DNA of 44,949 nt from a virus: positions 1 through 44,949 of IMG/VR virus record IMGVR_UViG_3300033049_000035; one strand, written 5' to 3'. Positions 3,563-13,895 of the stretch are shown here, one piece after another. The translations under genes and the position numbers were made by a program. Below the pieces are notes generated by a model. That model searched no databases and was not told the origin of the DNA. It saw only the letters and a list, made by a program, of their open reading frames with translations. Position 1 is the stretch's first letter, and every line of letters starts with the position of its first letter.

Positions 3563-6500
3563 TTAAGGTGGGTTAATCGTTACGGTTATAGGGTTTGATG
3601 GGCACCCGTCACCAACAAAGTAAACATCGTAGTCACCATCGACTAAGTTATTGAACGTTACTTGGTTCGTTCCACCCAATTCTGGTTGACCATTCAAATA
3701 CCAAGTATAATTATTATATTCGGGGTAAGGTGGGGATGTGGGTAAGGTTATAATAAAACTACCATTGCCTCCACCACCACTTTCATGTGTGATACTTGTG
3801 ACATCTCCATTAACTAATACTGGTGGGTCTTGGTCATATAATATGTAATTATGTACAATTGATTGGCCACCACTATCAGTAATAGTTACAACATATAACC
3901 CATCGACTAATCCCGTATGTGTGAATCCTGTTACATCGTAATTTGCTGGTCCTTCGACAACTACCTGATATGGTGGCGTTCCTCCAGAAGGTGTAATATT
4001 AAGATATCCATTAGCTAAACCTGTACATGTTGGGTTACCAGCTCCGAGTATTACTAATGGCTCTGTCACACCATTAACCCCAAATGTAAGTGCTGGTGGT
4101 TCAGTTATTTCTATTTGACCACAAAGTGATGTTGCACCTAAACTATCTGTTACGGTAACATTATATATTCCTACACCATAACCACCGAATACCTCACTAG
4201 GGCCATTGACATTAGTATAGTTGTCTACAGCCGTTGTGCTCGTATTTTCTATGTCTACAACGAATTGTCCCATACCACCCGTAATAAATACGTTAATAAA
4301 CGCATCATCATTTCCAAATGTTGCAAAACTTCCAGATGTGAAACAATTAAGCACAATTGGGTCTTGTACTACGAACGTTGTCGTTACCGATAGACCACCA
4401 CCATCAGTTACGGTTAAAGTGTACGTTCCACCTATTAAGCCATCAATATCAGGACTGTTAGGGTCTTCAATTATATGGACATCCCCATTAGGGTATGTCC
4501 AAGTGTATGTGAATGGTGCAGTACCACCAACAATTGTAATATCAATTTCACCATCAGGGTTGTTAATATCTATATTATTCTGTACATTACCGATAATAAC
4601 AAAATCTGGTTTATCATCAATTAGACACGGAGCAAAATATTTCTCCTTCATTTTTTGTATTGCGGTAGAAGCCCTATTAAGACCAAAATAAAAATAGAAT
4701 GAATCCTTAGTTTCGTAGCCAGAAGCTTGCTTATACGTTTGCTGATTACTGGTTCCATACCTGAAAATATTATAATCAGTCATACCTATTTGATTACCAC
4801 AGGTTGGGTTACCATTCCAATCAGCATCTACCAACGTTGGGTCAGAATTAGTTGTATTAAGGTCATAATTATTCATCCAAGCAAATATATTTCTACCGAA
4901 TCGATAGTCAATATCGTTATTGGTTAGTTTATGGTCAACAGGTGTTATAGTACCATTTATATCTCTATATTGGTCTAACCCCACACCAAATTCACATTGT
5001 CTCCTTAAATTACCACATTGTTGGGCATATGATTGTTCATAATTAATACAATTTACATCAATAAATAATGAATCTTCTACTAAACTACTGACGCTATCAA
5101 TACCATCCACAAATTCTAAATTCATATTTAAGTTAGTAGGGTCAGGAAAATATTCGGCCAATAATGGTGGCATATTGTAGGTTGTAGTAGGAAATATGTC
5201 GAATACATATGGTAGTCCTTTCCAATGACATTTAACACTAGAGCCTAAAGTCACAATATCGGTAGCCAATATATGTCTACCAATAGTCCTACTATAGGGG
5301 GCATAGTACAATGTACCATCATTCTTTTCTATGATGCCTTCAATCATTCTGTTAGAACTAGTTTGTTTAATACCATGAAGGTTACCACTATCACAGCCCT
5401 CACCACAAGTCCAAATCATATATGTATCATCATAACAGTCATTATCATACGGAATATCTGGATTATTGTTCACACCGCCACCGCCACATGACCACTCACA
5501 AAATCTCTCCTCACCACCATCTTCCACTTCATCTCTATATTTGAATAGTGGTGAATATAAAGCACCATTAACCCAATCATTATAGAAATCAAACTTAAGT
5601 AGATTTTCAGATTCTAATAAACTTAATGCTACGCATTGTGTATAACCTGCATCACCCAATGGTTCGGTCTCATTCCAATCGTTATCAGGGTCTGACCCCA
5701 CACATGCAGTATTACCGTTACCATTACCACCTGCGGCCTCGCAACCCCAGCAATTACCAGTAAGATTAGCATCAGATTGACAATGTAGGCATCCTGGAGC
5801 GAACCTCCTATTATCACACTTAAGCGTCACACAAGATACGTAAGCAATTGAGCTACCGCCAAAAAAATTAATAAAACCATTGATTACGTTAATAATAAAA
5901 TTAATTGGCACGATTATCAATAAGTTAATCATAATAAGAATACCTGCCAACGCCAACACAAGCCCACAAATGAACTGGAATAATGAACTGGATTCAACAT
6001 TTAAATGGTTAAACGGATAGGGGGTATATTTACCTCTAGCACTATCAACATCTTTAATACCAACAAATGTTCTTACCTGATTATTGCTTGGTGTTTGAGT
6101 GTGTTCATATCTAGGTACAAATTGTTTAATCGTGTATATTGTATTCCATTCTAAAGTATGATACTGAGACACATGAGTCTCAGAACCAAAATGGAAATCA
6201 ACTCCAGGACTTCCATTTGGATATTCTGGAGTTGGTGCTCCAACATTTAATTGTTCTGGATTATGTGGCACTAAAAATTTACCCCTAGTTCTTAATCTAC
6301 CTTCACCACCAGTTATATCCATTCCTATTCGGAAACGAACATTTGACTTAGTTGGTAACCCCTTTCTAGGGTCGTCTGACGGCACTAAATCACCATATTC
6401 GTCAGTTATTCTATAATCCAGATTCATTGGAATTTGGTAAGCCCACGTTCCATCTTTATCAATTACTTGTCCACCCTTTACATCATATCGTTCTACGGCA

Positions 6501-10709: not shown

Positions 10710-10742
10710 TTATAGTGATGTGATTTCGCATTGGCCGCCACT
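10710..10742 (-). pseudogene. Orphan C-terminal tail of class II ribonucleotide reductase (SGGQCEITSL-stop)
   Basis: Read on the minus strand, 10742 to 10710 encodes S-G-G-Q-C-E-I-T-S-L-stop. The intact reductase gene ends S-G-G-S-C-E-L-T-S-L-stop at 11708-11676. The two tails agree at 8 of 10 residues, but 14 of 33 bases differ, mostly at synonymous positions; even Ser is AGT in one and TCA in the other. The orphan has no start codon, and an in-frame TAG lies two codons upstream. It includes the equivalent of the second redox-active tail Cys. It reads as the former 3' end of the reductase gene, displaced by the HNH element. Confidence 0.8.
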
Positions 10743-11574
10743 AAACTATCATCCCACTACTAACAACTGTAACTGATGTACAGTTATAATTTTTTTCACC
10801 ATCTACAGATTCATAATAGATATTACAAGTTAAACTATTATGGTTATCCTCCTTTACAGTTATCTTACACTCAAAATCTAAGTGTCGGTCTAACTCTAAT
10901 TGAAACTTATCCTTAATGTCGATTGGTTCGAAGATGTTATTCAGCATGAAATCATTAGTAACCATTTTGACCAGCTTACCTCTAATTGTAGGTTCAACAA
11001 ACACTATATCATCCTTCTCCAACTCATCAACTTCGGCAATACGTTTACAAACGGTTACAAAATGTTCTTGGGTGTAGGTGCGTTTCATCATATTGACATC
11101 TTTATGTACCCACTGAACGTTTCCATCAATATATCCCTCAGATGAATCTATTCTATCCAATGATGCCGTCCAAGCCTTATCTTTACCATATGTGGGAAAC
11201 TTAAGCTCTATTCCAGATAACTTACATTTACGTCCTTGCTCTAAAAATAAATTCCAAGCGTATTCTTTATCGATAGTTAACGCAATCTTACTTCTACCTT
11301 TAGCACCCTCAGCACTTCTTACTATATGTCCATACCAAAAATCGGCAGATAGTTCACCGACACCACCCCACAGAGGGTTATCGTTACCTCGTTTATTTTG
11401 TTTGCACCCACAAGACTTACTATTACCCTGTCGAAGGTGAGTACCTAACACATTGGCCGTATTACCGCACTCACATTCGCATGTATACCTTATATGACCA
11501 TTCCTAGTTTTAGAGTGTTCCGACAACACTTTTAATTTACCGTATTTCTTACCTACCATTTCTATTTTCTTCAT
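10741..11574 (-). CDS. HNH homing endonuclease, 277 aa, inserted at the 3' end of the reductase gene
   Basis: About residues 9-58 form a zinc-binding domain common in phage HNH enzymes (YGKLKVLSE, CECECGN, then NSKSCGC). The HNH core follows at about 125-185: CKLSGIELKF, ASLDRIDSSEGYIDGNVQWVHKDVNMMKR. The remaining 90 residues are not recognised and may be the DNA-recognition part. Its TAG stop (10743-10741) uses the first two bases of the orphan reductase tail, so the gene ends exactly at the junction with that tail. The 101-base leader contains an inverted repeat ATTTACAT/ATGTAAAT. Its role is probably to spread itself and the linked recoded reductase tail. Confidence 0.88.
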   Translation of the reverse strand: MKKIEMVGKKYGKLKVLSEHSKTRNGHIRYTCECECGNTANVLGTHLRQGNSKSCGCKQNKRGNDNPLWGGVGELSADFWYGHIVRSAEGAKGRSKIALTIDKEYAWNLFLEQGRKCKLSGIELKFPTYGKDKAWTASLDRIDSSEGYIDGNVQWVHKDVNMMKRTYTQEHFVTVCKRIAEVDELEKDDIVFVEPTIRGKLVKMVTNDFMLNNIFEPIDIKDKFQLELDRHLDFECKITVKEDNHNSLTCNIYYESVDGEKNYNCTSVTVVSSGMIV

Positions 11575-11708
11575 GATTTCATATTTACATCATCATTATA
11601 CATGTAAATAGTGTGCAATGACATAAAAAGATAAAAAAAATAGGCCACTCATTAATATAATATGTAACTTGTTGATTACAAACTGGTTAGCTCACAACTT
11701 CCGCCACT
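10743..11708 (-). mobile_element. HNH homing element carrying a recoded reductase 3' end (about 966 bp)
   Basis: The proposed element starts at the coding-strand AGTGGCGG at 11708-11701, inside the reductase gene, and ends just before the second AGTGGCGG at 10742-10735. It holds ten reductase codons plus the stop, a 101-base leader and the HNH gene. Removing it and joining TGC (11711-11709) to AGTGGCGGCC (from 10742) restores an uninterrupted reductase frame with both tail cysteines. Both junctions share the 8-base direct repeat AGTGGCGG. A group I intron is an alternative, but the bases at the borders (C before the 5' border, TTT at the 3' end) do not fit the usual U and G. Confidence 0.7.
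11590..11612 (-). repeat. Inverted repeat in the HNH leader
   Basis: Arms ATTTACAT and ATGTAAAT (8 bp, perfect) with a short loop, about 15 bases upstream of the HNH ATG at 11574. There is no T run, so this is not a terminator. It could hide or expose the start region of the endonuclease mRNA, since homing endonuclease expression is often restrained by leader structure; that part is inference. Confidence 0.45.
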
Positions 11709-13895
11709 GCAAGCAACGGCAGAAAATTTGTTAATATCAACGTACTCTGGTTTTATCTTTTCCAAGATAGGAGCAACATCTAAGTTTCTGATTGAGTTAT
11801 TAGTCTTCATCCATTTATGAGCCAAATGTACATCCTTAACGCAGAACGTCAATTCTTGTACATCAGCAAAATGCTTCTTACCGAACTTCTTAGCTTTACT
11901 AATCCAATCTTTCTTCAATAGAACTGATTGTCGCGTACCTTCGATTGGTAATTCATCATTCAACAAATAGTCACATGCTTTCCATAGGTTATTTTCGAAT
12001 AAGTGTAAAGCATCTACAATTAATCCTGAAACAAACATTGAGGCATGGCCATACTTCTCAATAATTTCGTCCACTTCCAACACTTCTGTAAATGGTGCTT
12101 GGTTGAATATTTTATCACCATGATTAGCCATTAAACTAATTCCTGAGAACCATTTCTTATTATCCCAGATATATTCTTTTACTTCTTCCCAATCATCCAC
12201 AGTAATAGTGTTAGATACGTTATGTCTAACTTCTGGAATAATACATAGGTTTTCGTTAGTACCTGTTTCAACCCAATGTTGTTGAACCAATTTAACATAT
12301 TCTAATTGTTTTACACCTAAACAATCCTCTTTAAGTATGGTTTTTTTATCTGCTTTCATCGGTACGAATAATGCATAATCAGCATTAGTTGACGACCATA
12401 CAGATTCCTCAATAAGGTCGGGGTATTTATTGTTTAAATACTGAGCAATCTCCTCTTCCTTATTGATTTGCATGATTCTAAAAGAATTCTTAGAGTGAGC
12501 TGGATGAATACCTGAAGTAGTTTCTAATAGAACTGAGGCATTTCCACTTGGCTTAACACATGTAGTTCTTGCCGCCTTATTAATTCCAATCATCTTAGCA
12601 ACTATTGCATTGATTTCCTTAATCATGTTTGCTCCGTTCTCCAAAATCTCTGGGTCAAATAAAATCTTAGGGTTATTCATGAATCCAGTGATTGAGCAGC
12701 CAATAAGGGCTTCCCTATCACAAATCTCTTTACTCTCTGATGTTAAATATTTGAAGTCCGTGTACGATGCTTGTAGCGTACCAATAAAGGCTGACGCAAC
12801 ACAAGATTTATAGAACGTTTCTTCATCATTACACATACCACCGTTAATTTCAGTTAAGTTACATACTTGCCACCCACTTCTACCATCTTCAGTTCTTGGT
12901 ACCATACCTATCTCTACACATGGATTATACACCACTTCATGTGTTTCAGAGAATACAAAACCTGGCTCTCCGAACTCTTTTGTAGATTTGAAAATGGCAT
13001 CAAATGCCATTTTTTCAATTTCGTCTCTAATAAGGACAACTGAGTTATTAGAACGTGCTCTTTGAGGATTATCTGCCAACCAATTACCTGTCTTAGCATT
13101 CATCATCTCTTTATCATCATGACTGAATAGTGCAATAGTAGCTGAACGTCTAACACCTCCACTAAGAACGGCATCAGAACAATGCATCAACACATCATAA
13201 GCTACAACTGGTCTCCATCGTTTTGGTTCATCCGTAACTACGCTCTCTAGAAGTCTTTCTATTCTCTCAAGAGACTGCTTCAAGCCTTCATGTCCAGGAG
13301 CCTTAAATCCACCTGAAATCAAAGCACCTTTAGGTCTTATTTTAGAGTAGTCAAAGTGAACTACGCTGTTCTCGTACTCTGGAAACGTATGGTCGGTATC
13401 ATAATATGATGATAACAATACGCCAACTGCGTCTGCCCATCCTTCTATAGAGTCCTCAATAACATATGTTTTAGTTCCGTTAGTACGCTTAGAGATTGTA
13501 GGCATTTTTGCCACATGCTCCTTCATAAACGACACTCCAACACCACAACCACATAAAAGCATATACATTCCTTCTTGGAATACTCTGGCTCTATCACAAT
13601 ACGATACCGTACAATTATACATCTTAGCATTATGCTTCATAATTGGCTTCCCACTAAATTGTAGTGAGCGTTGTGATGCTAATACCAATTTATCTTTATA
13701 GGCTTCAACAGCTTCGTCAAAAAAATCCACAAATTGTGGATTAGTAAATGCCTTTTTAAACTTTGGGTTTTGGCGATGCATATCCATCACCATTTCAACC
13801 TTCTCTCCCCATGTCTGTTTTCGTTCAAGTATCTCATTATATTTCGAATAATCGTTATAGAATTTAATATCAGACAGAATCTTTGTTCCTTTCAT
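11676..13895 (-). CDS. nrdJ: Adenosylcobalamin-dependent (class II) ribonucleotide reductase, monomeric RTPR type
   Basis: The enzyme reduces ribonucleotides to deoxyribonucleotides using coenzyme B12 and supplies phage DNA synthesis. The 739-aa length matches the monomeric Lactobacillus enzyme. Visible landmarks are the conserved early cysteine in MYNCTVSYC (about residue 94), GCGVGVSF, LSGGVRRSA, the active-site NPCVEIG (about 327, radical cysteine), CNLTEIN (about 346, partner cysteine) and the PSGNAS loop. The C-terminal redox pair is C-SGGS-C (residues 729 and 734). It is oxygen-independent but needs cobalamin from the host or medium. The last ten codons lie in what looks like an inserted HNH element, and the former tail survives at 10710-10742. 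It sits between gp25 and gp6, among late genes. Confidence 0.95.
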   Translation of the reverse strand: MKGTKILSDIKFYNDYSKYNEILERKQTWGEKVEMVMDMHRQNPKFKKAFTNPQFVDFFDEAVEAYKDKLVLASQRSLQFSGKPIMKHNAKMYNCTVSYCDRARVFQEGMYMLLCGCGVGVSFMKEHVAKMPTISKRTNGTKTYVIEDSIEGWADAVGVLLSSYYDTDHTFPEYENSVVHFDYSKIRPKGALISGGFKAPGHEGLKQSLERIERLLESVVTDEPKRWRPVVAYDVLMHCSDAVLSGGVRRSATIALFSHDDKEMMNAKTGNWLADNPQRARSNNSVVLIRDEIEKMAFDAIFKSTKEFGEPGFVFSETHEVVYNPCVEIGMVPRTEDGRSGWQVCNLTEINGGMCNDEETFYKSCVASAFIGTLQASYTDFKYLTSESKEICDREALIGCSITGFMNNPKILFDPEILENGANMIKEINAIVAKMIGINKAARTTCVKPSGNASVLLETTSGIHPAHSKNSFRIMQINKEEEIAQYLNNKYPDLIEESVWSSTNADYALFVPMKADKKTILKEDCLGVKQLEYVKLVQQHWVETGTNENLCIIPEVRHNVSNTITVDDWEEVKEYIWDNKKWFSGISLMANHGDKIFNQAPFTEVLEVDEIIEKYGHASMFVSGLIVDALHLFENNLWKACDYLLNDELPIEGTRQSVLLKKDWISKAKKFGKKHFADVQELTFCVKDVHLAHKWMKTNNSIRNLDVAPILEKIKPEYVDINKFSAVACSGGSCELTSL

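Follow-up and report, generated by a model that had tools for sequence, protein, structure and literature searches.

The window, the whole stretch of 44,949 nucleotides of viral DNA that was analysed, carries on its minus strand an intact gene for a class II (B12-dependent) ribonucleotide reductase (RNR), followed by an HNH nuclease gene and then by a second version of the RNR C-terminus, here called the orphan tail. The features are:

11676..13895, minus strand: class II RNR, the host gene, intact, 739 amino acids, assigned from PHROG 367 and relatives
11676..11708, minus strand: functional tail, SGGSCELTSL and stop, at the RNR 3' end; start of the element if the tail was inserted
11613..11675, minus strand: 3' flank of the functional tail, resembling in alignment the RNR 3' end and terminator of the HNH-less relative L002, with the hairpin damaged
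10741..11574, minus strand: HNH nuclease open reading frame, 277 amino acids, with a core (residues 1-180) and an extension (residues 181-277)
10710..10742, minus strand: orphan tail, SGGQCEITSL and stop, whose first two bases finish the HNH stop codon
10664..10688, minus strand: intrinsic-terminator-like hairpin AGAGGTCATTAGACCTCT and T run behind the orphan, resembling the L002 RNR terminator
10743..11708, minus strand: the putative whole element, 966 bp, made up of replacement tail, flank and HNH gene, as delimited from the insertion model and relatives

The host gene matches the ribonucleotide reductase family PHROG 367 with an E-value of 2.9e-85, a Pfam match to the RNR-II insertion domain falls below the cut-off, and the nearest loci are 83-85% identical to the window RNR at the protein level. 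Of the two paired C-terminal cysteines, the first has its codon at 11711-11709; the functional tail begins right behind this codon and reads AGT GGC GGA AGT TGT GAG CTA ACC AGT TTG TAA on the minus strand. The orphan reads AGT GGC GGC CAA TGC GAA ATC ACA TCA CTA TAA. An earlier sequence-only reading had described this arrangement of two tails with the HNH gene between them, and it was recovered exactly when the minus strand was read again. A recount also gave the same figures, with 14 of 33 bases differing, eight of ten residues kept and the first eight bases identical, and the HNH stop codon (TAG, 10743-10741) does share two bases with the start of the orphan, as had been noticed. The orphan stands above chance, the tail scoring 49 against the downstream region compared with a maximum of 28 among 30 codon shuffles, and some 20 further loci have a similar orphan in the corresponding position. 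The window orphan is out of frame with the HNH gene, while in most relatives that have one it is in frame. Without the 966-bp element the window reductase would end in the orphan tail.

The HNH protein is similar to the PHROG endonuclease/HNH families (E 4e-21 and 1e-19), and the alignments display HNH-type features, namely conserved Cys pairs and the segment SLDRIDSSKGYxxGNVQWVHKDVNMMK. Neither Pfam nor a sequence-profile search of solved structures gave any match to this protein, and the nearest fold to its predicted model is the HNH endonuclease PacI, which is a weak match (E 3e-3). Residues 1-180 constitute the conserved core of the family, and nearly all of 65 related loci match only there. 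The C-terminal extension, residues 181-277 (11034-10744 of the window), has no match among these loci and is a low-confidence region of the predicted model.

The 65 loci were found using the HNH protein alone as query, and a class II RNR is encoded directly upstream of the HNH gene in about 40 of them even though RNR was not part of the query. When an alignment of the family was used instead, 162 HNH loci were obtained, 101 of which (67 non-redundant) have an RNR upstream. The RNRs that precede HNH genes are often only 23-40% identical to that of the window, and the mutual identity of RNRs from HNH-bearing loci goes down to 22-40%. HNH proteins may be up to 72% identical where their RNRs are 39% identical, which fits an element that is specialised for a single motif and moves between RNR lineages. 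An orphan is lacking in most RNR loci with an HNH gene and beats every shuffle in 17 of the 67 non-redundant ones; a search by CX2-6CE motifs misses truncated remnants (IVDLT-stop in L018, EIK-stop in L050), which were found only via relatives. About 20 orphans are in frame with the HNH gene, whose protein then has a piece of RNR as its C-terminus and terminates at the old stop. The RNR stop and the HNH start overlap or adjoin in L018, L020, L022, L025, L031, and L066, where the new tail and the HNH gene together make a compact unit of about 530 bp. Matches of CCGNGC type recur some 70-200 nt behind the HNH gene and were judged to be unrelated.

Three comparisons of filled and empty sites settle, by alignment, the direction of insertion in relatives. 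The genome of the cultured crAss-like phage PhiCrAssBcn18 equals that of PhiCrAssBcn20 plus an insert of 576 bp, with no mismatches over 317 nt to the left and at least 480 nt to the right. The empty alleles of PhiCrAssBcn20, PhiCrAssBcn1, and crAss001 read TGT AAA GAT TGT / GGG TAT AGT AAA TGT TTA TAA, while the filled one reads TGT AAA GAT TGT / GGC TAC TCA AGG TGC AAT TAA, then the HNH gene, then GGG TAT AGT AAA TGT TTA TAA. The insert thus opens with six re-spelled codons and a stop and goes on with the HNH gene, leaving the old tail intact behind it; the orphan equals the empty allele at 21 of 21 bases, and the new tail differs in six of six codons. In the second comparison, between the metagenomic loci L013 (with HNH gene) and L263 (empty), identity is about 97.6% on both sides and 58% in the tail core; here the right junction lies at or just past the old stop and an orphan is absent. 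In the third, the orphan of L022 shares 34 of 36 bases with the native L170 tail and runs directly into the native L169 flank; the functional L022 tail does not match and is of another type, with CX3C instead of CX4C. In both L022/L169 and PhiCrAssBcn18/20 the insertion occurred right after the Cys codon, exactly and near the gene end, and the native end was kept downstream. The earlier claim of an HNH element that enters an essential gene with a recoded tail of its own, the old tail staying behind, is borne out base by base in PhiCrAssBcn18/20, L013/L263, and L022/L169/L170.

The supplied tails also differ from the rest of the gene in how far they have diverged. Measured against the nearest empty gene, the tail core of HNH-bearing genes loses 16 points of identity relative to the gene body, while that of empty genes loses 2 (p = 2e-13). 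Where functional and orphan tails agree in residue, 75% of the codons are different, compared with 38% in the gene body (p = 1e-11), and between orphans and the nearest empty tails the corresponding figure is 49%. The Glu following the second Cys has been lost in 21 of 72 HNH-bearing genes and in 3 of 195 without HNH, rates that need care in absolute terms since the two sets come from different queries and differ in sampling; the difference holds within the RNR groups rnr13 and rnr22, and weakly in rnrW. In relatives the inserted end is more diverged from empty relatives than the native end, which is not the case in the window. The divergence patterns fit escape from the nuclease, which would then spare the re-spelled tail.

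In the window itself, the nearest relatives have 78-81% DNA identity and a near-isogenic empty allele was not found, so that insertion there is deduced by homology. The HNH-less L002 (83% identical) carries the functional tail of the window and most of the 60 bases behind it, and the tails of both L002 and L004 are nearer to the functional tail than to the orphan. In the window either tail may therefore be the donor's. The sequence-only reading had named HNH-less relatives that end in the recoded tail and lack the orphan as speaking against insertion, and L002, which ends in the functional type, is partly such a case; PhiCrAssBcn20 and L170 end in tails like the orphans of their filled relatives. 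The window may have received an L002-like end together with the element, or its own end may have been retained and the orphan brought in with the HNH gene. Its layout is identical under either origin.

The anatomy, the exact insertion in relatives, the exchange of tails, the recurrence, and the tail divergence can be read from the sequences themselves, and from them we infer cutting, homing, and immunity. The nuclease would cut RNR genes that lack the element, at a point immediately past the Cys codon, and repair would copy in the element, that is a replacement tail of some 6-12 codons with its stop followed by the HNH gene. The host gene would be complete without splicing, and the recipient's old tail would be left downstream of the HNH gene; in most orphan-bearing relatives the HNH reading frame runs on into this tail and takes its stop. 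The re-spelled tail should escape further cutting. Mutations conferring resistance to cutting would be costly, since the tail carries the catalytic cysteines. We consider it highly probable that the locus holds a homing element whose HNH family enters coding genes, in most cases at the C-terminal cysteine motif of a class II RNR, and makes good the damage it causes.

The alternative that survives best, though it is rather unlikely, is plain co-conversion. A free-standing HNH gene would then lie behind the RNR of a donor, and homing would have dragged in the naturally different donor tail via flanking homology, the tail being donor sequence and not a part tuned for immunity. Co-conversion near free-standing phage endonucleases is known (PMC2988022), and the functional tail of the window and the bases following it resemble HNH-less L002. 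However, the difference between PhiCrAssBcn18 and PhiCrAssBcn20 starts exactly at the insertion codon after 317 identical bases, so that the tail belongs to the insert. The functional tails are moreover more re-spelled than the gene body, and in L022-type loci, where the stop of RNR and the start codon of HNH overlap, the tail and the HNH gene are a single unit.

A self-splicing intron lying at the 3' end of RNR, with an unspliced form that likewise yields a working enzyme, is very improbable. In its favour, splicing the element out would give back the native tail, group I introns are common in RNR genes, and one is present elsewhere in the L075 contig. Yet a search against Rfam gave no intron match at the window element or at the tails of nine related loci, group I and II matches being absent from the window, L419, L411, L023, L028, L047, L013, L006, and the L075 tail. 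The same search detected the L075 intron (126-358, E 1e-20), upstream and far from the tail element, which served as positive control, and low-scoring matches to sRNA families, below gathering scores, were discarded. The intron alternative raised in the sequence-only reading thus found no support, the window and eight of the nine related loci giving no Rfam intron match. In addition, the L022-type inserts of about 530 bp are almost wholly HNH coding and leave little space for a ribozyme. An intein was rejected, as a stop codon follows the functional tail in the window and relatives and there is no open frame into a downstream extein. Least probable of all is that the orphan is left over from an older RNR duplication or arose by chance as a fragment, the HNH gene having landed between the two by accident: the window does have two RNR 3' ends with terminator-like sequences, but this reading is already contradicted in relatives, where empty alleles have a single tail, identical or near-identical to the orphan, joined directly to the RNR body, and where the same layout occurs in diverse RNR lineages and in unrelated genes.

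Several of these other genes show the same kind of duplication. In L047 an HNH relative lies behind an unrelated gene of 257 amino acids, and the end GGPSQSLAF-stop occurs twice (near 4745 and 5528), encoding the same protein with six of nine codons re-spelled. HNH relatives in L049, L052, L062, L063, and L064 are found behind genes of PHROG 7595 (minor-head-like), and the HNH end repeats the KVKW-stop type end of the gene. Pseudomonas phage PA11 (L411) displays an N-terminal mirror image (1469-1498 and 2033-2179), in which the order is a stub MPLKKGKSI-stop, the HNH gene, and a re-spelled start VPLKRGKS joined to the remainder of the gene; in HHBS10_2 and O4 the gene is intact. The ends NKRSV-stop and NQRSV-stop in BSTP12 are suggestive but short. 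A duplicated end was not found in Acinetobacter phage YMC-13-01-C62, where the HNH gene lies behind a MazG-like gene, or in the loci L409, L410, and L412, and on inspection no convincing one was found in cyanophage S-SKS1 (psbA), U1G DNA polymerase I, S-CoN_Ph8, or Anedea. With more reserve than for the element itself, we think it probable that a widespread natural home-and-rescue class exists in phages, in which compact HNH genes invade the C- or N-terminal coding ends of many conserved genes, the terminus being re-spelled under selection against cutting and the element being near-neutral to the host and hard to resist.

The sequence-only reading had pointed to fungal mitochondria, whose mobile ORFs, with their duplicated C-termini, are indeed the nearest parallel in nature (PMC3630166). 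Such ORFs occur in Allomyces atp6 and in Glomus atp6, atp9, cox2, and nad3; an endonuclease ORF that has entered an essential gene close to its 3' end supplies a C-terminus of foreign origin, while the native one stays downstream and matches that of empty relatives, the differences being largely synonymous (PMC3630166). The fungal ORFs differ in that they are mitochondrial, encode LAGLIDADG or GIY-YIG nucleases and have tails of about 50-240 bp (PMC3630166), whereas the phage nuclease is of an HNH family, the tails are of 6-12 codons, the stop is often common with the HNH gene, and one N-terminal case is found. No LAGLIDADG or GIY-YIG nuclease in mitochondrial DNA is involved here, so that the phage elements work like the fungal tail-carrying ORFs without being members of those families.

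Among phages the closest parallels are the free-standing endonucleases of T4 type and the split nrdA of Aeh1. The T4 mob and seg genes likewise encode phage nucleases, free of intron or intein, in the neighbourhood of RNR and further conserved genes, and nrdA and mobE have a similar stop/start overlap, but genes of this type are described as lying between genes or as splitting a gene into two working halves, and a replacement end is not described in the accessible part of the account (PMC2988022). In Aeh1 an HNH homing gene, mobE, lies within the nrdA coding sequence, also without splicing; the enzyme there consists of two polypeptides (cited in PMC2988022 and PMC3653736), whereas the phage element described here completes the gene with the tail it supplies. 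The design is also like that of the HomeR home-and-rescue drive, which cuts an essential gene near its 3' end, inserts there and supplies a re-coded 3' end; HomeR is, however, an engineered Cas9 drive in flies, and the analogy is functional only, with no common descent (PMC7968924). No report of a supplied gene end in a phage was found in the open-access literature searched.

If the mechanism is as proposed, a selfish nuclease gene needs neither intron nor intein to settle in an essential coding motif, because it brings its own repair, and the logic of engineered rescue drives occurs naturally in phages, where mixed infection would put it to the test. As the arrangement recurs in cultured gut phages, it is experimentally accessible. 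It would account for misannotated RNR ends, odd C-terminal motifs in phage RNRs and HNH proteins that end in a piece of a neighbour. It also gives a search rule, a duplicated and re-spelled gene end around a nuclease ORF, which already reaches beyond RNR.

Some minor observations were made at the RNR 3' ends. L041 and L042 (4833-4931) have a second RNR-like tail, CVSGVCEI-stop, which follows the RNR stop and precedes the HNH gene instead of lying downstream of it. L013, L012, L135, L145, and L277 have a small ORF of WGNDVTITYQVLLAFYNQRK type between the HNH gene and the next gene, and this ORF is absent from the empty allele. L002 and L004 both have further genes behind RNR; that of L002 (6603-8282) is a DUF723/restriction-like nuclease gene, and L072 (6155-6907) has a NUMOD3 gene, both nuclease-type genes being on the opposite strand at the RNR 3' end. 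The RNR tail thus looks like a hot spot for several nuclease types. The RNR reading is broken by about 1 kb inside the gene in L004 (5001-8291) and L007, possibly by an intron or intein, and the RNR of KLEP7 is annotated as two genes.
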